From the NCBI RefSeq assembly GCF_009733815.1, contig NZ_WNXY01000007.1, positions 124,001 to 188,000 of the forward strand: 64,000 nt of DNA. Reading direction: 5' to 3'. Shown here in pieces: positions 27,440-43,177 of this stretch (position 1 is its first letter; every line of letters starts with the position of its first letter). The notes below the pieces were generated by a model. That model had not been told where the DNA came from. It saw nothing but the letters and a program-made list of their open reading frames with translations, and made no database searches. This DNA comes from Pseudactinotalea suaedae. GTDB lineage: Bacteria > Actinomycetota > Actinomycetes > Actinomycetales > Beutenbergiaceae. Position numbers and translations under genes: made by a program.

Positions 27440-27487
27440 ACGTCGGGCCGACCAGGCGCTTCCACCCGCTCACGCCGCCCATACCGG

Positions 27488-27598
27488 CCAGAACCACCTG
27501 CTCGGCCCCTCGGTGCAGCCAGAACCACCTGCTCGGCCCCTCGGTGCAGCCAGAACCACCTGCTCGGCCGCTCGGTGCAGCCAGAACCACCTGGTCGG
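27488..27598. repeat. Array B: four direct 31-bp repeats ending at the glgP stop
   Basis: CCAGAACCACCTGCTCGG begins at 27488, 27519 and 27550, and a one-base variant (CTGGTCGG end) begins at 27581. The period is exactly 31 bp, and the 13-bp spacers CCCCTCGGTGCAG are also conserved (one base changed in the third). All copies point the same way, and no inverted copy is seen. The last unit ends at 27598, the base before the glgP stop codon (27599-27601). The array occupies most of the 159-bp gap between the converging AbiEi-like and glgP genes. Confidence 0.92.
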
Positions 27599-30202
27599 TC
27601 AGGCGCTCGCCACCAGTCCGAGCTCGGTCGGCGCCGCGAGGCCCTCGTGCTTGGGCACGACCCGGACGGCGTAACCGAAGGGCCCGGACTGGCCCAGCGT
27701 GAACGACCGGGCGAACTGGTGGCGCCCGCCCTCGTAGGTGTCGGTCAGCTCGAGCGAGGCGGTGCCGAAGTCGGCGATCTCGTCGTTGTCCGCGACGAGC
27801 CCGTAGTTCATCTGCACCTCGACGTCCGCCGGGGTCAGGTCACCGAGCGAGACGAATGCCTTCACCGTCACGTGGTCGCCCACCTTGACGGCGTCGTGGA
27901 GCCCTTCGGACTCGACGTGGTCCACACGGACCGACGGCCACGCCGACCGCACCCGCTGCTTCCAGCCGGCCAGCTCGACCGCACCCGCGTGACCTGAGCC
28001 GGCCGCGCTCCGGTAGGACAGGGCCGTCGGCGCGTAGAGCTGCTCGACGTAGTCGCGGACCATGCGCGTGGCCTGGACCTTCGGGCCGAGCGTCGCGAGC
28101 GTGTGCCGCACGTTCTCCAGCCAGTGCGCGGGCAGCCCGGTGTCGTCGCGGTCGTAGAACCGCGGTGCCACGGTGTTCTCGATCAGGTCGTACAGAGCCG
28201 CGGCCTCGAGGTCGTCGCGGCGCTCGCCGTCCTCGACGCCGTCGGCGGTGGGGATCGCCCAGCCGTTCTGCCCGTCGTACATCTCGTCCCACCACCCGTC
28301 GAGGATCGACAGGTTGAGGGAGCCGTTGAGCGCAGCCTTCATGCCGGACGTGCCGCAGGCCTCGAGCGGACGCAGCGGGTTGTTCAGCCACACGTCCGTG
28401 CCGGGGTAGAGCGTCTGGGCCATCTCGATGTCGTAGTTCGGCAGGAACACGATCCGGGTGCGGACCTCCGGGTCGTCGGCGAACTGCACCAGCTTCTGGA
28501 TCAGCCGGATGCCCTGCTCGTCGGCCGGGTGCGACTTGCCCGCGACCACGATCTGGATCGGGCGCTCGGGGTCGGTCAGCAGCTTCTTCAGCCGGTCCTG
28601 GTCGCGCAGCATCAGCGTCAGCCGCTTGTAGGTCGGCACCCGCCGCGCGAACCCGATCGTCAGCACGTCGGGGTGGAGGACGTCCTCGACCCATCCCAGC
28701 TCGGCCGGCGAGGCGCCGCGCCGCAGCCACGACGCGCGCACCCGCTTGCGCGCATCCGCCACCAGCCGCGAGCGCATCAGGCCGCGGAGCCCCCAGAGCG
28801 TCTCGTTCGACATGCCGTTCTCGGTCTTGAGCCAGCCGGTGCCGTCGGCGATCTCCTCGGCGCTGAAGTGCTCGGCCTGTGCCTCGGCGAACACGGGGTC
28901 GACCCACGTCGGCGAGTGCACGCCGTTGGTGACCGAGGAGATCGGCACCTCGGAGGTGTCGAAGCCCGGCCACAGCTGGGCGAACATGCCGCGCGAGACC
29001 TGGCCGTGGAGCCGGGCCACACCGTTGGCCTTCTTGGCCATCCGCAGCCCCATCACGGCCATGTTGAAGATGCCTTCGGCACCGCCGGGGTAGTCCTCCG
29101 CGCCCAGGGCGAGCACGCGCTCGACCGGGATGCCGGGGAGCTCGGCGGCCCCTCCGAAGTACTGCGCCACGAGACCGGCGTCGAACCGGTCGATGCCCGC
29201 GGGGACCGGCGTGTGCGTGGTGAACACCGTGCCGGCACGCACCGCCTCGATCGCGGCGTCGAACGAGAGGCCCTCGGCGGCGCTGCCCTCGATGAGCTCG
29301 CGAACCCGCTCGACGCCGAGGAAGCCGGCGTGGCCCTCGTTGCAGTGGTAGACCTCGGGCGCCGGGCCGCCGGTGAGCCGGGCATGCAGCCGCAGCGCCC
29401 GGACGCCGCCCATCCCGAGCAGCAGCTCCTGCTGCAGTCGGTGCTCGCTGGTGCCGCCGTAGAGCCGATCGGTGACGCGGCGCATGCCGTCGTCGTTCTC
29501 GGGCACGTTGGAGTCGAGCAGCAGCAGCGCCACCCGCCCGACATCCGCCCGCCACACCTGGGCGTGCAGCTGGGCACCGCCGGCCAGTCCGAGCGTGACG
29601 CGCGCCGGTGTGCCATCGGCTTCCCGCAGCAGCGTCAGCGGCAGGTTGTCGGGATCCAGCAGCGGGTAGGTCTCTGCCTGCCAGCCGTCACGCGTGAGGG
29701 CCTGCCGGAAGTAGCCGGCGCCGTACAGCAGCCCCACCCCGATGATCGGCGCACCGAGGTCGGAGGCGCTCTTGAGGTGGTCGCCCGCGAGGATGCCGAG
29801 GCCGCCGGAGTACTGCGGCAGCGCTGCGGTGATGCCGAACTCCGCCGAGAAGTACGCGATCGCACGAGGAAGCTCGGGCTCACCCGCCTCGGCACGGCGC
29901 TGCGTCTCGCGCTGGTACCAGCGCGGCTCACGCAGATAGGTCTCGAGATCGGCGGCGAGACCCTGGACGCGAGCCACGAAGTCGCCGTCGGCCGCCAGCT
30001 GGGCGAGACGCTCGGAGGTGAGCGCGCCGAGGAGCTTGACCGGGTCGCCGTGCACGTGCTCCCACAGCCCGGGGTCGATGGAGGCGAACATCTCGCGGGT
30101 GGGCGCGTGCCACGACCACCTCAGGTTGAGGGCGAGGTCGTCGAGGACGCTCAACGCCTCGGGCAGCACGGTCCTGACGGTGAATCTGCGGATGGCTCTC
30201 AC
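27599..30202 (-). CDS. glgP: Alpha-glucan (glycogen) phosphorylase, GT35
   Basis: The 867-residue enzyme releases glucose-1-phosphate from alpha-1,4-glucan. The N-terminal actinobacterial extension (RFTVRTVLPEALSVLDDLAL, then NLRWSWHAPTREMF) is of the DUF3417 type. The core has SAEFGITAALPQYSGGLGIL, and the PLP lysine is K622 in CGTSGMKAALNGSLN. The start is GTG at 30202. TACACT on the minus strand (30210-30215) ends seven bases before it, so the mRNA is probably leaderless. It diverges from glgE-glgB, the same arrangement as in mycobacteria. The stop codon directly abuts the last unit of repeat array B. Confidence 0.94.
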   Translation of the reverse strand: MRAIRRFTVRTVLPEALSVLDDLALNLRWSWHAPTREMFASIDPGLWEHVHGDPVKLLGALTSERLAQLAADGDFVARVQGLAADLETYLREPRWYQRETQRRAEAGEPELPRAIAYFSAEFGITAALPQYSGGLGILAGDHLKSASDLGAPIIGVGLLYGAGYFRQALTRDGWQAETYPLLDPDNLPLTLLREADGTPARVTLGLAGGAQLHAQVWRADVGRVALLLLDSNVPENDDGMRRVTDRLYGGTSEHRLQQELLLGMGGVRALRLHARLTGGPAPEVYHCNEGHAGFLGVERVRELIEGSAAEGLSFDAAIEAVRAGTVFTTHTPVPAGIDRFDAGLVAQYFGGAAELPGIPVERVLALGAEDYPGGAEGIFNMAVMGLRMAKKANGVARLHGQVSRGMFAQLWPGFDTSEVPISSVTNGVHSPTWVDPVFAEAQAEHFSAEEIADGTGWLKTENGMSNETLWGLRGLMRSRLVADARKRVRASWLRRGASPAELGWVEDVLHPDVLTIGFARRVPTYKRLTLMLRDQDRLKKLLTDPERPIQIVVAGKSHPADEQGIRLIQKLVQFADDPEVRTRIVFLPNYDIEMAQTLYPGTDVWLNNPLRPLEACGTSGMKAALNGSLNLSILDGWWDEMYDGQNGWAIPTADGVEDGERRDDLEAAALYDLIENTVAPRFYDRDDTGLPAHWLENVRHTLATLGPKVQATRMVRDYVEQLYAPTALSYRSAAGSGHAGAVELAGWKQRVRSAWPSVRVDHVESEGLHDAVKVGDHVTVKAFVSLGDLTPADVEVQMNYGLVADNDEIADFGTASLELTDTYEGGRHQFARSFTLGQSGPFGYAVRVVPKHEGLAAPTELGLVASA

Positions 30203-30209
30203 GGCCCGG

Positions 30210-30215
30210 AGTGTA
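30210..30215 (-). promoter_or_regulatory. -10 box of a leaderless glgP transcript
   Basis: TACACT on the minus strand ends seven bases before the GTG at 30202. No ribosome-binding sequence is present, which fits leaderless expression and supports this start over more upstream frames. Confidence 0.55.
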
Positions 30216-30334
30216 TCCAGGCAAGATGGCCGCGCTGTTTCGCAGCGCTTCCGTCTGGGGGAGATCCGCGCGAGCCGGTGCCCTCGCTCGGGGGACATCC
30301 GCCCGAGCGGCCCACCAGGCCGGCGGGTTCTCGG

Positions 30335-30340
30335 TAGGTT
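30335..30340 (+). promoter_or_regulatory. -10 box of a leaderless glgE transcript
   Basis: TAGGTT fits TAnnnT and ends six bases before the GTG at 30347. Together with the glgP box it forms a divergent pair of leaderless promoters within 144 bp. No operator palindrome is obvious between them. Confidence 0.5.
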
Positions 30341-30346
30341 CGTGAC

Positions 30347-32380
<2,034 letters not shown>

Positions 32381-32453
32381 GGTGCCGCAGGCAGGTCCGG
32401 CGACCCCGGACGGGCCCGTAGGCTGGTCATCACCATCGAGCGAGGAGGTTGCT

Positions 32454-34664
32454 GTGACCGACGCACCAAGCTCGGGAGCGACCCGGGCCGCCGACCCGAT
32501 CCCGGTTCCGCAGGAGTTGCTCGCCGCCGTGGGTCAGGGCGTCCACTTCGCCCCGCACGAGGTCCTCGGTCCGCACGCGCACGGCGGGTCGGTGACCATC
32601 CGCGCCGTGCGTCACGGCGCCGACTCGGTCACCGTGGTCACGGCCCAGGGCCGGATCCCGGCCCGGCACGAGCACGAGGGCGTCTGGGTCGCCGTCGTGC
32701 CGTCGGAGGAGGTACCCGACTACCGGCTCGAGGTGACCTACGGCGACCGCACCGACGAGGTCGACGACGGCTACCGCTACCTGCCCACGCTCGGTGAGGT
32801 CGATCAGCACCTCATCAACGAGGGCCGCCACGAGGAGCTGTGGACCGTGCTCGGCGCGCACGTGCGGCGCTACCCGACCGGTTTCGGCGAGGTCACCGGG
32901 ACCTCGTTCGCCGTGTGGGCGCCCAACGCGCGCGCGGTCCGCGTGGTCGGCGACTTCAACGGCTGGGACGGCCGTGGCACGGCGATGCGCTCACTCGGCG
33001 GCAGCGGCATCTGGGAGGTGTTCGTGCCGCACGTCGGTGACGGCACCCGGTACAAGTTCGAGATCATCACGCCCGACGGCGCGGCCCGCACCAAGGCGGA
33101 CCCGATGGCACGTGCGACGGAGGTCCCGCCGGCCACGGCCTCGGTGGTGACCGAGAGCACCCACGTGTGGACGGACGAGGCGTGGATGGAGCAGCGGCAA
33201 CGGAACGACGTCCGCGATGTCCACGGGGGCCCGATGAGCATCTACGAGGTGCACCTCGCGTCGTGGCGGCAAGGGCTGTCCTACCGCGAGCTGGCCCGCG
33301 AGCTGGTCGAGTACGTCACGTGGATGGGCTTCACCCACGTGGAGCTGCTGCCGGTCGCCGAGCACCCCTTCGGAGGCTCGTGGGGCTACCAGGTGACCTC
33401 CTACTACGCCCCGACGTCGAGGTTCGGCTCTCCCGACGACTTCCGCCACCTCGTCGACGCGCTGCACAACGCCGGGATCGGCGTCATCCTCGACTGGGTG
33501 CCCGCGCACTTCCCCAAGGACTCCTGGGCGCTCGCGCAGTTCGACGGCAGCGCCCTCTACGAGGACCCCGACCCGATGCGCGGCGAGCAGCGTGACTGGG
33601 GCACGTACGTCTTCAACTACGGCCGCAACGAGGTGCGGAACTTCCTCGTCGCGAACGCCGTGTACTGGCTGAGCGAGTTCCACATCGACGGCCTGCGCGT
33701 CGACGCCGTCGCGTCCATGCTCTATCTCGACTACTCGCGCCAGCCGGGTCAGTGGCGCCCCAACGTGCGGGGCGGCCGGGAGAACCTCGAGGCGATCCAG
33801 TTCCTCCAGGAGACCAACGCGACGGCGTACCGGACCAACCCGGGCATCGTCATGATCGCCGAGGAGTCAACCGCCTTCCCCGGCGTCACTGCCGCGACCT
33901 CCGGCGGTGGGCTCGGCTTCGGTCTGAAGTGGAACATGGGCTGGATGAACGACACCCTCCGCTACATGGCGGAGGAGCCGATCAACCGCCGCTACCACCA
34001 CGGCGAGCTGACGTTCTCGCTGGTCTACGCGTTCTCCGAGCAGTACGTGCTGCCGCTGTCGCACGACGAGGTCGTGCACGGCAAGGGCTCGTTGCTGCGC
34101 AAGATGCCCGGCGACCGGTGGCAGCAGCTCGCGGGCCTGCGGGCGCTCTTCGCCTACATGTGGACCCACCCCGGCAAGAACCTGCTGTTCATGGGCAACG
34201 AGTTCGGGCAGGACGCCGAGTGGGCCGAGTCCCGCTCGCTCGACTGGTGGCAGGGCGACGTCCCGGAGCACGCCGGCGTGCGGCTGCTGCTGCGCGACCT
34301 CAACCGGATCTACACCGCCCACCCGGCGCTGTGGGCGGACGACTTCAGCCACGCGGGCTTCCAGTGGCTCGAGGCAGGCGACGGCGACCACAACACGATC
34401 TCCTACCTGCGCCTCGGGCAGGGGCAGGTGGTTGCGGTCGTGGCCAACTTCGCGGGCACCACGCACGAGGGCTACCGGGTGGCGCTGCCGCACGGCGGCG
34501 AGTGGGTGGAGCTGCTGAGCACCGACGACGCCACCTACGGCGGCTCCGGCGTGACCAACGGAGGCCGGGTCACCGCGGAGCCGATCCCCTGGGCCGGCCG
34601 CACGCACTCGGTCGAGCTACGTGTCCCGCCCCTCGGCGCCGTGATCCTCACCCCCGCCACCTGA
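32454..34664 (+). CDS. glgB: 1,4-alpha-glucan branching enzyme
   Basis: The enzyme has 736 residues and creates alpha-1,6 branches in the glucan. An N1 domain (1-110) precedes the CBM48 ([20 protein letters not shown], about 149-168), then the GH13 barrel. The nucleophile is D417 ([10 protein letters not shown]), the acid/base is E470 (MIAEEST), and [13 protein letters not shown] carries the third acid. The GTG start at 32454 is chosen for the GAGGAGG about six bases upstream. A frame opening at 32382 has no such site. It is co-directional with glgE. Its stop is immediately followed by repeat array C. Confidence 0.95.
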
Positions 34665-34804
34665 GCGATTTCACCGCACTTTCGACGCGGGCACGATTTC
34701 ACCGCACTTTCGACGAGGCGCGCTTTCACCGCACTCTCGGGCGCGCAGCATCGCCGCGATCCTGACGGCGTGCCGCGCCCGTCGAAAGTGCGGTGAAATC
34801 GCTC
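34663..34804. repeat. Array C: three direct words and one exact inverted copy, 28/27-bp period
   Basis: The word TTTCACCGCACTTTCG occurs within 34666-34687 and 34694-34715, and as a variant TTTCACCGCACTCTCG within 34721-34742. Steps are 28 and 27 bp. An inverted copy lies within 34780-34804. Including flanks, the first and inverted copies form a perfect 25-bp inverted repeat (34663-34687 with 34780-34804), so a transcript could fold a long hairpin. The array begins at the glgB stop codon (34662-34664) and fills the gap to the converging degenerate-thioredoxin gene. The same word recurs in array D, 8 kb away. Confidence 0.92.
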
Positions 34805-34834: not shown

Positions 34835-35761
34835 CTAGTAGAGGGCGATCGCGAGATCGCGCCGGGCCTTGAGCACGGCAGGGTCGGCGGCATCGGCGAG
34901 CAGGAACAGCTCGACGAGCCGGGCGCGCGCCGCCTCCTTGTCGTCTCCGGCGCTCGCCCGGACGGCGGCCAGCAGCCTCGCGTAGGCGGCCGGCGCCTGG
35001 CCGGCGCTCACCTCGACGTCGGCCGCGGTCAGCTGCACCGCGACGTCTCCGGGTGCGGCGTCGCGCGCCGCGGTCAGCGCGGCCATGGGGTCGACCCCGT
35101 CCAGCCGGGCCATCAGCTGGACCTGCGCGAGCAGCGCCCTGGCCTCGTCGTCGGCGGGGTTCTGCTTGATCGCGAGCTCGAGCCCGGCGACGGCCTCGTC
35201 GAACGCACCGGTCTCGATCGCGTCGTAGGCGGCCTGCAGGTGCTCGGGCAGCGGCGGCTCCTCCGGCTCCTCGGCAGGCTCCGGCTCCTCGGCGACGCTG
35301 ATCGTGCCGGTCACACCGTTCTCGGCGGCGACCCGCAGCAGCTCGTCCAGCACGGCCTGCACCTGCTCCGCCGGGTGCGCACCCTGGAACAGCGGCAGCG
35401 GCTGACCCTTGATGATCGCGAACGTGGTGGGGAGCGCCTGCGCACCGACCGCCTGCGCGATCTGGGGGTTGGTGTCGGCGTCGACGCGCGCGAGCTGGAA
35501 CTTGCCGGCGTAGGTCGCGGCCAGCTGCTGCAGCGTCGCCGAGAGCTGGGTGCTCGCCGCCGAGCGCGCCGAGTACAGGTCCACCACCACCGGCACGGTC
35601 ATCGAGGTGGTGACGGCCTCCTGGAAGGTCTCGGCCGTGATGTCGACCACGACCCCGTTCGGGGCGCTCGCGCCGCCGCCACCGGGGGTGGGGGCAGGCT
35701 TGGAGAGCGCCGAGAGGTCGACGGCGCCGCGCAGGTTGAGGCCGGAAGGAGGCTGGGTCAT
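34835..35761 (-). CDS. Thioredoxin-fold protein with degenerate active site and TPR-like tail (YbbN/CnoX-like)
   Basis: The 308-residue protein has a thioredoxin domain (about 36-150) in which the CxxC motif is replaced by YSARSAAS. The cis-proline segment (QALPTTFAII) is intact. It can therefore bind partners but cannot do disulfide exchange. An acidic linker (EEPEPAEEPEEPPLPE) leads to a C-terminal helical repeat domain of the TPR type (LQAAYDAIETGAFDEAVAGL onward). This order matches YbbN/CnoX co-chaperones that hand clients to DnaK or GroEL, including forms that have lost the cysteines. Array C follows its 3' end. Confidence 0.85.
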   Translation of the reverse strand: MTQPPSGLNLRGAVDLSALSKPAPTPGGGGASAPNGVVVDITAETFQEAVTTSMTVPVVVDLYSARSAASTQLSATLQQLAATYAGKFQLARVDADTNPQIAQAVGAQALPTTFAIIKGQPLPLFQGAHPAEQVQAVLDELLRVAAENGVTGTISVAEEPEPAEEPEEPPLPEHLQAAYDAIETGAFDEAVAGLELAIKQNPADDEARALLAQVQLMARLDGVDPMAALTAARDAAPGDVAVQLTAADVEVSAGQAPAAYARLLAAVRASAGDDKEAARARLVELFLLADAADPAVLKARRDLAIALY

Positions 35762-41260: not shown

Positions 41261-42736
41261 ATGGGTGACGAGATCGCTGGAACGCGCTTCACACGCGCCG
41301 AGCGCACCCGATACCGGGAGAAGGTGCGGCGCTGTCTCGACGTGTTCGAGCAGATGCTGGCCGACGATCACTTCGACGGGACCGCCGGCGTCACGGGCCT
41401 GGAGATCGAGCTCAACCTGGTGTCCTCGGCGTTCCAGCCGGCGATGGCGAACGCCGAGGTGCTGGACCGGATCGCCGACCCCGCGTTCCAGACCGAGCTC
41501 GGTCGCTACAACATCGAGCTGAACGCTCCGCCGACCACGTTGGCGGGCGACTCCCTCGCCAGCCTGGAGGACTCGCTGAGGTCGTCGCTCAATCGCGCCG
41601 AGTCGCTCGCGACCGGGGCCGGTTCGCACATCGTCATGGTCGGGATCCTGCCGACGCTGATGCGCGAGGACCTCGAGGGCGACTGGATGAGCGAGAACGC
41701 CCGCTACGAGGCCCTGGAGGATGCGGTGCTCGGTGCGCGCCGCGAGGACATCGAGCTGGACATTTCCGGGCCGGAGTCGTTGCGGATGACGATCGACTCG
41801 ATCGCACCCGAGTCGGCGTGCACGTCGGTGCAGCTGCACCTGCAGGTGGCGCCGCAGGACTTCGCGGCGCACTGGAACGCCGCCCAGCTCCTAGCGGGAC
41901 CGCAGCTGGCGCTCGGCGCCAACTCCCCGTTCCTGTTCGGCCGGCGGCTGTGGGCCGAGACGCGGACCGAGCTCTTCATGCAGGCGACCGACACCCGGTC
42001 CCCCGAGCTGCGCAACCAGGGGGTGCGGCCCACGGTGTGGTTCGGTGACCGCTGGATCACCTCGATCTTCGACCTGTTCGAGGAGAACGTGCGCTACTTC
42101 CCGGCGCTGCTGCCGCAGATCTCCGACGAGGACCCCGAGGCCGTGCTGGCCGCCGGAGGTGCACCCCGGCTGCAGGAGCTGCGCCTGCACAACGGCACCG
42201 TGTGGCGCTGGAACCGCCCGGTCTACGACACCGTCGGCGGGGTGCCGCACTGCCGGGTCGAGAACCGGGTGCTGCCGGCAGGGCCGACCGTGGTCGACAC
42301 CGTCGCGAACGCCGCCTTCTACTACGGCTGCCTCGTGGAGATGGCGCGCGACGACCGGCCCGCCTGGAGCCGGATGTCGTTCGCGACCGCCCGGGCCAAC
42401 TTCGACGCCGGAGCCCGCCACGGCGTGGAGGCCACGTTCTACTGGCCCGGGTACGGCGAGGTCGGCTGGGACGAGCTGATCCTGCGCGAGCTGCTGCCGC
42501 TGGCCCACGCGGGACTGGCGAGGCTGGGGGTCGCCGACGACGTCGCCACCCGGTATCTCGACGTGGTCAAGGCGCGCTGCCAGCTGCGTCGCAACGGCGC
42601 GTGGTGGCAGACCGAGGCGGTCGCACGCCTCGAGAACCGTGGGCTCTCGCGCACCGACGCCCTCACCGAGATGACCAGGCTCTACACGCGGTTCATGCAC
42701 ACCAACGAGCCCGTGCACACCTGGGAGCTGCCCTGA
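41261..42736 (+). CDS. Glutamate--cysteine ligase family 2-like (GCS2) ATP-dependent carboxylate-amine ligase
   Basis: The protein has 491 residues. The family's N-terminal signature is seen as GVTGLEIELNLV with a following glutamate-rich ATP/metal site (RYNIELNAPPTTL). Central blocks ACTSVQLHLQV and ALGANSPFLFGRRLW and the C-terminal HCRVENRVLPAGPTVVDT also fit. Such enzymes join an amine to a gamma- or alpha-carboxylate. Because mycothiol normally replaces glutathione in actinobacteria, gamma-glutamylcysteine formation is not certain. The start is ATG at 41261, without a strong Shine-Dalgarno. Its stop faces array D and the small zinc-ribbon gene. Confidence 0.8.
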   Translation: MGDEIAGTRFTRAERTRYREKVRRCLDVFEQMLADDHFDGTAGVTGLEIELNLVSSAFQPAMANAEVLDRIADPAFQTELGRYNIELNAPPTTLAGDSLASLEDSLRSSLNRAESLATGAGSHIVMVGILPTLMREDLEGDWMSENARYEALEDAVLGARREDIELDISGPESLRMTIDSIAPESACTSVQLHLQVAPQDFAAHWNAAQLLAGPQLALGANSPFLFGRRLWAETRTELFMQATDTRSPELRNQGVRPTVWFGDRWITSIFDLFEENVRYFPALLPQISDEDPEAVLAAGGAPRLQELRLHNGTVWRWNRPVYDTVGGVPHCRVENRVLPAGPTVVDTVANAAFYYGCLVEMARDDRPAWSRMSFATARANFDAGARHGVEATFYWPGYGEVGWDELILRELLPLAHAGLARLGVADDVATRYLDVVKARCQLRRNGAWWQTEAVARLENRGLSRTDALTEMTRLYTRFMHTNEPVHTWELP

Positions 42737-42803
42737 CCGGTTTCGACCGCTGCAGCCCCGGGGATCCATGGCGGCGACCTGGACCGCCGACGCGGGAGCA
42801 GGG

Positions 42804-42876
42804 TCGAAAGTGCGGTGAAAGCCGGAAGTGGGCGAAAGTGCGTTGAAAGCCCGAAGTGGGCGAAAGTGCGTTGAAA
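42804..42876. repeat. Array D: three direct words at exact 28-bp period, same word as array C
   Basis: CGAAAGTGCGGTGAAA (42805-42820) and two copies of CGAAAGTGCGTTGAAA (42833-42848, 42861-42876) are spaced by exactly 28 bp, with partly conserved 12-bp spacers (GCCGGAAGTGGG / GCCCGAAGTGGG). The first copy is the exact reverse complement of the word in array C, so the two arrays belong to one repeat family. It lies in the 159-bp gap between the converging GCS2-like and zinc-ribbon genes. No inverted partner is present inside this array. Confidence 0.92.
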
Positions 42877-42895
42877 TCGAGGGGGGTGGAGGTGG

Positions 42896-43177
42896 TCAGC
42901 GGCGCCAGCACTGGGTGTGCCAGTGCCGGCGGTCCGCCAGGCCAGCCTCCGCGCCGAACAGGTGGTCCTCGTTCCAGGCGACGAGGTGCTGCGCGCCGGG
43001 AGCGATGTCACCGCCGCAGCCGGGGCATCGATAGCTCTTGTCGCTGCCGCTGACGGTGCGCACGGTCCACCGCCTCCCCTGCCGGTCGACCTCGGTGCGG
43101 GCGGCCCCACGGGTGAACGCCTCGACGTCCAGGGGCACGTGCTCGGCGTTGTAGGGCCGCTTGCGGCTGCGCCTCAT
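42896..43177 (-). CDS. Small zinc-ribbon-like protein
   Basis: A 93-residue protein with a basic N-terminus ([10 protein letters not shown]). A probable zinc site is formed by C-x2-C (YRCPGCGG) and a C-terminal H-x-H/C group (HWHTQCWRR). Tryptophan and histidine placement in [13 protein letters not shown] suggests a compact ribbon. Similar small proteins are widespread in actinobacteria, often loosely annotated as ATP/GTP-binding, but no nucleotide motif is visible here. Its start overlaps the stop of the beta-glucosidase gene by four bases, so it may be co-translated with the glycosidase operon, perhaps only by position. Confidence 0.75.

Follow-up and report, generated by a model that had tools for sequence, protein, structure and literature searches.

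The DNA analysed here, which we call the window, is a stretch of 64,000 nt from Pseudactinotalea suaedae (the host; contig NZ_WNXY01000007.1 of assembly GCF_009733815.1, positions 124,001-188,000, forward strand). Two short tandem arrays of one word, C and D, lie in it between convergent genes, and an array of a second repeat family lies elsewhere in the same window:

778-921, second repeat family, same layout: word GTGGGCGCTANCTCACCGC at a period of 31, two reverse then three forward units around a 13-bp centre
32382-34664, plus strand, glgB, to the left of gap C, ending at 34664
34669-34739, minus strand, left arm of array C, three units starting at 34669, 34697 and 34724
34783-34798, plus strand, right arm of array C, one unit
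34835-35761, minus strand, thioredoxin/TPR gene, to the right of gap C, ending at 34835
41324-42736, plus strand, GCS2-family gene (glutamate-cysteine ligase family 2, PF04107), upstream of array D
42737-42895, convergent gap containing array D
42805-42820, plus strand, array D unit 1, exact word CGAAAGTGCGGTGAAA
42833-42848, plus strand, array D unit 2, G-to-T form of the word, CGAAAGTGCGTTGAAA
42861-42876, plus strand, array D unit 3, G-to-T form of the word, 19 bp off the 3′ end of the downstream minus-strand gene
42896-43177, minus strand, 93-aa gene downstream of array D, with the array at its 3′ end

The 93-aa gene has no Pfam or NCBIfam match at E 0.001. As an earlier, sequence-only reading of this stretch had stated, array D consists of three copies at exactly 28 bp (starting at 42805, 42833 and 42861), the last two of which share a G-to-T change, and its word is the exact reverse complement of the array C word: the units at 34669 and 34697 are exact reverse copies, and the one at 34724, which follows at a step of 27, is a reverse copy with one mismatch. 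Together with the right arm, which that reading did not mention, array C is an inverted array (three reverse units, one forward), and array D is one arm, gap D holding no reverse copy of the word even at 5 mismatches. The window contains 7 word matches at up to 3 mismatches where 0.22 were expected, and 0 of 100 shuffles reached 7. Gap C with both of its arms folds as a long hairpin (z of -5.6 versus shuffles); gap D folds no better than shuffles (z of +0.58). The earlier reading had also pointed out that similar flanks around C and D would explain the shared word by segmental duplication. Over approximately 2 kb on each side, the two loci align at the arrays and elsewhere only at chance level (the next best match is 32 bp long, with an E of 0.011), so no segmental duplication is seen and we rule out this origin for the pair.

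The proposal that the word belongs to a dispersed repeat family that occurs as arrays holds for the whole genome: at up to 2 mismatches the host carries 58 forward and 67 reverse copies (approximately 125 in 4.54 Mb), versus 5 forward and 3 reverse (8) for the same pattern read backwards. We inspected 31 clusters, which derive from 27 loci fetched from 100 of the 125 copy places, plus C and D. The conserved unit is approximately 20 bp long (GNTTTCAMCGCACTTTCGNC when read toward the centre), and 69 out of 80 steps between units are 28 bp. A reverse arm is followed by a forward arm in 20 clusters, while a reverse arm stands alone in 6 and a forward arm in 5; the order forward-then-reverse occurs in 0 of 31. 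Two of the 11 one-armed clusters, as counted, are the two arms around a nuclease gene on contig C13 that is described below. The gaps had been called convergent, which is correct for both C and D and for 17 of the 31 clusters, but the other 14 lie between co-directional genes (none is in a divergent gap).

Of 51 arms, 41 point at the 3′ end of a gene, with a median of 11 bp to the stop codon, and 10 at a 5′ end (genes called with a simple ORF caller). Such a placement would be expected if the arrays served convergent genes as bidirectional transcription terminators or as 3′ hairpins in their mRNAs, and both the fold of gap C and a slight likeness between the innermost arms agree with it (p of 0.02 relative to shuffled arms, versus 0.21 for the outermost arms, in 20 clusters). 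We nevertheless find this explanation improbable: array D is one-armed and does not fold, as many as 11 of the 31 clusters are one-armed, terminators need no fixed sequence, and the pairing of the word with a nuclease gene would be left unexplained. The arrays are also not the ends of a transposon with one shared interior, as the host interiors of this family gave no cross-matches at E 0.01. Array interiors in the relative G012 (see below) have short matches of 15-100 bp and no common body. Long interiors other than the one on C13 hold sugar-kinase-like, glyoxalase-like and LacI-like genes, among others (names assigned by eye).

Among 24 genomes of the taxonomic family, the word occurs in numbers in three, which form one genus in the scheme used: the host (125 copies, control 8), G012 (116, control 15) and G013 (30, control 0). 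In five others there is one match each. The only named genomes with tandem words were Actinotalea caeni JCM 30447 and Pseudactinotalea terrae KACC 16542, and we infer that these, both Cellulomonadaceae, are G012 and G013, respectively. Where the relatives are syntenic with the window, G013 has array C and G012 lacks it, neither has a word in its counterpart of gap D (at up to 2 mismatches), and neither has the 31-bp array of positions 778-921. When 20 fetched G012 array loci were compared with 29 from the host, 6 had a counterpart and 14 did not; the host has further arrays outside these 29.

The core of the word, AAGTGCGGT (window positions 34673 and 42808), equals the core of the Haemophilus uptake sequence in nine identical bases, and in Pasteurellaceae uptake words are also found as inverted pairs behind genes. 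That the words serve in DNA uptake is nonetheless very improbable, and the likeness is best taken as chance. Whereas uptake sequences of the Haemophilus type occur at high density, coding sequence included, the approximately 125 copies per 4.5 Mb seen here are, for those listed, mostly clustered, and the 31 clusters lie mainly at gene ends. The sister words at other DUF559 genes (below) lack the core, and within the family the word is numerous only in the three genomes named.

The words and the linkers between them behave differently. Word identity is 0.90-0.93 in every comparison, whether within the same arm, between opposite arms or between clusters. For the 12-bp linkers, it is 0.655 between neighbours in one arm versus 0.473 between opposite arms and 0.482 between clusters. 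Because linkers are alike within one arm only, we conclude that units multiply in tandem within an arm; compared with the words, they further imply that the arms are not copies of each other and that the word alone is kept. The arrays are also unlike CRISPRs, which have direct repeats with unique spacers: here the linkers are alike within an arm, and the arms are inverted. The earlier suggestion that the family evolves within each array therefore describes the linkers but not the words, which change genome-wide. In particular, the G-to-T change is not local to array D: among core-matching copies from the 27 host loci of this family that were fetched, 46 of 102 have it, versus 0 of 79 units at the fetched G012 loci. 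Six orthologous gaps, the nuclease locus among them, carry arrays in both genomes; in these, 23 of 27 G012 units start with GCA or CCA and 26 of 32 host units with CGA or CGG. At orthologous gaps the arrays of each genome thus have that genome's word, i.e. the words undergo concerted evolution. The sequence-only reading asked whether such gaps in relatives carry the same or another word; here the change goes with the species and not with the single array. The words are dispersed through the genome, grow in tandem within arms, lie behind stop codons and change in concert between species.

The second family, with its period of 31, is represented in the host by 156 copies of GTGGGCGCTANCTCACCGC at up to 3 mismatches (control 21) and also occurs in divergent gaps. 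At the loci inspected (L061-L073), the centre of the inverted array is exactly 13 bp in 15 of 16 junctions, and the linker sequence is free. In the sixteenth (L061:3144-4424), a transposase-like gene (integrase core PF00665, E of 1.5e-10), which we take to be of the IS30 type, is inserted in the centre. There was no DUF559 gene among the 10 neighbour proteins scanned for a gene cognate to this family. Rho-loading arrays, an idea suggested by the C/U-rich strand of the C/D family, were dropped because this 31-bp family is not C-rich, as judged by inspection and not by calculation. Another 31-bp tandem repeat, at window positions 27487-27598 (3.6 copies, GCCAGAACCACCTGCTCGGCC...), occurs only there in the genome, if matches with 2-3 mismatches are set aside.

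On contig C13 of the host, one long interior in the arrays of the C/D family codes for a protein with a DUF559 domain (PF04480, E of 5e-9), and the word of array D is the word of this gene. Close members of the protein family number two in the host, two in G012 and none in G013, which has approximately 30 word copies yet no close DUF559 gene. All four are bracketed on both sides by inverted arrays, each with a word of its own: TTTCAMCGCACTTYCG, TTTCACCGCACTTTGC, TTTCAACACGATTCCG and TTTCAACCCACTTCTG. Each gene is paired with its own private word. The third of these is the second host word, with 39 + 35 host copies, counting those beside its gene and allowing 2 mismatches, versus 0 + 0 in the control, and with 1 copy in G012 and 5 in G013. 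In one mixed array (G000:C15:223242-223410), a unit of this second DUF559 word (TTTCAACACGATTC) adjoins units of the C/D word. In G012 the C13 gene has the same neighbours, although its protein is only 57% identical; the nuclease gene is thus not seen to move. By inspection, each of the 5 host genes that pass the PF04480 cut-off is flanked by a repeat upstream and downstream; a weak sixth host match (L142) and a G013 gene (L136/L144) have nothing clear in their flanks. Among the papers listed in searches of open-licence PMC articles, none concerns the pairing of a DUF559 gene with repeats.

The proteins of this family have an AbiEi-like N-terminus and a C-terminus that resembles Vsr and homing endonucleases. 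A member from A. caeni JCM 30447 is encoded at L027:5725-6645 on NZ_WNXX01000005.1, which by offset corresponds to approximately 29725-30645 of that contig. For 40 members, Pfam gave matches to DUF559 in 39, to MTES_1575 in 34 and to AbiEi_4 (PF13338) in 12, and the PADLOC AbiEi model matched 30. The family profile matches 3hrl (6e-11), 3r3p (annotated as a mobile intron protein; 1.3e-4), PvuRts1I (2e-4) and Vsr (0.01-0.04); we assume 3r3p to be I-Bth0305I. Residues S195, E198, D230, E241, D243, D262 and R265 (A. caeni numbering) are conserved in at least 90% of the 40 aligned members, which, with the profile matches, points to a putative Vsr-like nuclease domain with D230, E241 and D243 as its conserved acidic residues. 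A single-sequence structure prediction for the A. caeni protein reached a pLDDT of 40 and was not used.

Upstream of these genes, we found the motif TCCACAG, which resembles the actinobacterial DnaA box. On either strand, it precedes 31 of 33 DUF559 genes in the taxonomic family versus 3 of 50 controls, and in a uniform test 29 of 31 in the family and 31 of 55 in the class versus 6 of 122 and 2 of 54 controls, respectively. Its orientation in the class set is mixed (16 forward, 15 reverse), and several times it is present as two copies approximately 28 bp apart. Genes with the motif in front include L141, L144 and L161.

If the DUF559/AbiEi proteins bind the words, the words could be sites useful to the cell, for regulating genes, insulating convergent genes from each other or marking its own DNA, and could be kept by selection on the sites and not by copying. 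AbiEi-type proteins bind inverted repeats, and such selection would fit the 0.90 identity of words whose linkers drift at a fixed length (the 28-bp steps above) as well as the exact 13-bp centre of the 31-bp family, the sequence of which is free. We consider this reading unlikely given how readily the sites turn over: array D is found in neither of the two relatives and array C in one, and 14 of the 20 fetched G012 array loci lack a counterpart among the host loci compared. In addition, the named neighbours of C and D (glycogen branching, thioredoxin, GCS2) have no function in common.

The pairing of DUF559 genes with repeats extends beyond this genus. PF04480 has 33 matches spread over 17 of the 24 family genomes, and 69 of the 98 genomes sampled from the class contain it. 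Using one fixed procedure, which scores a repeat of at least 38 bits common to the upstream and downstream flanks, we detected a shared repeat for 18 of the 31 family genes with DUF559 and for 25 of the 55 class genes (43 of 86 together), versus 1 of 122 and 1 of 54 control genes (2 of 176); the Fisher p values of 3e-14 and 3e-8 are nominal because several genes per genome were counted. Of the two controls that scored, the one from the family is itself an AbiEi_4 protein (E of 2.6e-6) and weakly matches a nuclease; the one from the class (42.8 bits) is no AbiEi_4 protein. The matched stretches are inverted or direct, and by eye many are palindromes or arrays. The remaining 43 of 86 DUF559 genes have no shared flank repeat at 38 bits, four of them (L171, L161, L165 and L169) having hairpins or shared repeats under other flank limits. 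The class sample is not random, since 37 further loci were hand-picked (open frames of 287-422 aa, on long contigs); of 30 other loci, 10 were left out as fragments or for open frames outside approximately 290-450 aa, and one more because the family set already had it. A short flank removed 1 of 56 class genes, 2 of 33 family genes also dropped out, and five control edge artefacts (812 bits, with a truncated upstream stretch) were discarded. An earlier, less uniform version of the test gave 15 of 29 DUF559 genes versus 0 of 33 controls at 38 bits.

Searched against the 24 genomes, at least 11 of 20 bracketing repeats have further copies in their own genome, and 9 have no other copy, among the matches listed; among the same 150 listed matches, at least 2 recur in other species of the same genus and 0 in another genus. 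Weaker matches beyond those listed include one in G022 (E of 0.004), a genus without a query repeat, and a few in G015, G018 and G021. These copy numbers are lower bounds, because 150 of approximately 300 matches were parsed (with 10 overlapping rows merged) and 17 candidates were scored per genome. Separately, an AbiEi_4 gene without a PF04480 match, beside a thioredoxin gene (L191 and L192 in G009 and G011; L099), stands between hairpins of GCGAGGTTGTTGGC, a word found at other places in genus g7 as well. The idea that GCGAGGTTGTTGGC is an unrelated terminator word of that genus was ruled out, because its pairs bracket the AbiEi-like gene.

The nearest known system is that of REPs and RAYTs (REPtron, TnpA-REP), in which, as here, a single nuclease or transposase gene is flanked by inverted repeats that are cognate to the enzyme and are dispersed, gene-free, in the same genome. 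According to excerpts of the literature, two inverted REPs always flank a RAYT gene (PMC2817692), a later paper reports other RAYTs with long terminal inverted repeats on their flanks (PMC3733652), and there is no evidence that RAYT genes are themselves mobile (PMC8266576); this last excerpt matches what we see for the DUF559 genes. The gene lies between inverted repeat copies for all 4 close paralogues, and between inverted or direct copies for the 43 of 86 in the wider set, and gene-free dispersal of the same repeat is seen both for the C/D word and for at least 11 of the 20 other repeats, among the matches listed. The enzyme is different: it combines an AbiEi-like part with DUF559 (Vsr/PD-(D/E)XK type) and is not an HUH tyrosine enzyme, and the 8 Pfam families matched by the 40 members include no tyrosine transposase that would supply the HUH motif and catalytic tyrosine of the IS200/IS605 type. 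Neither strand of the commonest 20-bp form of the word has a GTAG or CGTC tag, and the repeats differ as well, being inverted tandem arrays of 28-31 bp units and also single hairpins. Because enzyme class and tag do not agree, we regard the system as REPtron-like in its working, but not as a REPtron.

The nuclease part resembles EDxHD homing endonucleases (I-Bth0305I) and Vsr, as judged from the profile matches to 3r3p and to Vsr structures given above. In endonucleases of the I-Bth0305I type, according to an excerpt, a DNA-binding part is tethered to the nuclease domain (PMC3943268), a layout that the DUF559 proteins would share. In contrast to these, the DUF559 genes are free-standing on the chromosome and bracketed by dispersed repeats, and one family member gave no match in a plasmid and phage search. 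The N-terminal region resembles AbiEi antitoxins of the type IV toxin-antitoxin system AbiE (PF13338 in 12 of 40 members, the PADLOC model in 30 of 40), but the DUF559 proteins fuse it to a nuclease domain.

We think it probable that array D is a non-autonomous copy, lacking the gene, of a repeat that is maintained and copied in trans by its cognate DUF559 nuclease, in a REPtron-like manner but with an unrelated enzyme. The home copies of the repeat would be those that bracket the AbiEi-like/DUF559 nuclease gene on contig C13, and the nuclease would both recognise the word and drive its copying. Its winged-helix part may recognise the word, either bare or as a hairpin where both arms exist; its Vsr/homing-like part would then nick or cut, and repair by copying would place and re-place words at tolerated sites, chiefly just behind stop codons. 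Points against this reading are that no movement was seen and that the nuclease gene keeps its place, that G013 has its approximately 30 word copies with no close DUF559 gene, that 43 of 86 DUF559 genes have no shared flank repeat at 38 bits, that 9 of 20 bracketing repeats have no other copy among the matches listed, that a weaker match lies in G022, and that the 10 neighbour proteins scanned for the 31-bp family include no DUF559 gene. About the broader proposal we are nearly evenly divided, with a slight lean toward doubt: AbiEi-DUF559 genes may drive a REP-like class of elements with an origin separate from that of RAYTs. Each gene would use a hydrolytic nuclease of the homing type to copy and homogenise, within its own genome, one palindrome or inverted array private to it, and TCCACAG in front of the gene might link this activity to replication.

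Under this explanation, a widespread protein family with no assigned function would gain a role, and many of the small palindromes between actinobacterial genes would have a source. It would also tie a second, unrelated enzyme class to REP-like repeats, so that one may ask about traits common to the two: a private word, a fixed gene, gene-free copies behind stops and concerted change. With two close nuclease genes and two words in one genome, their specificity is directly testable.
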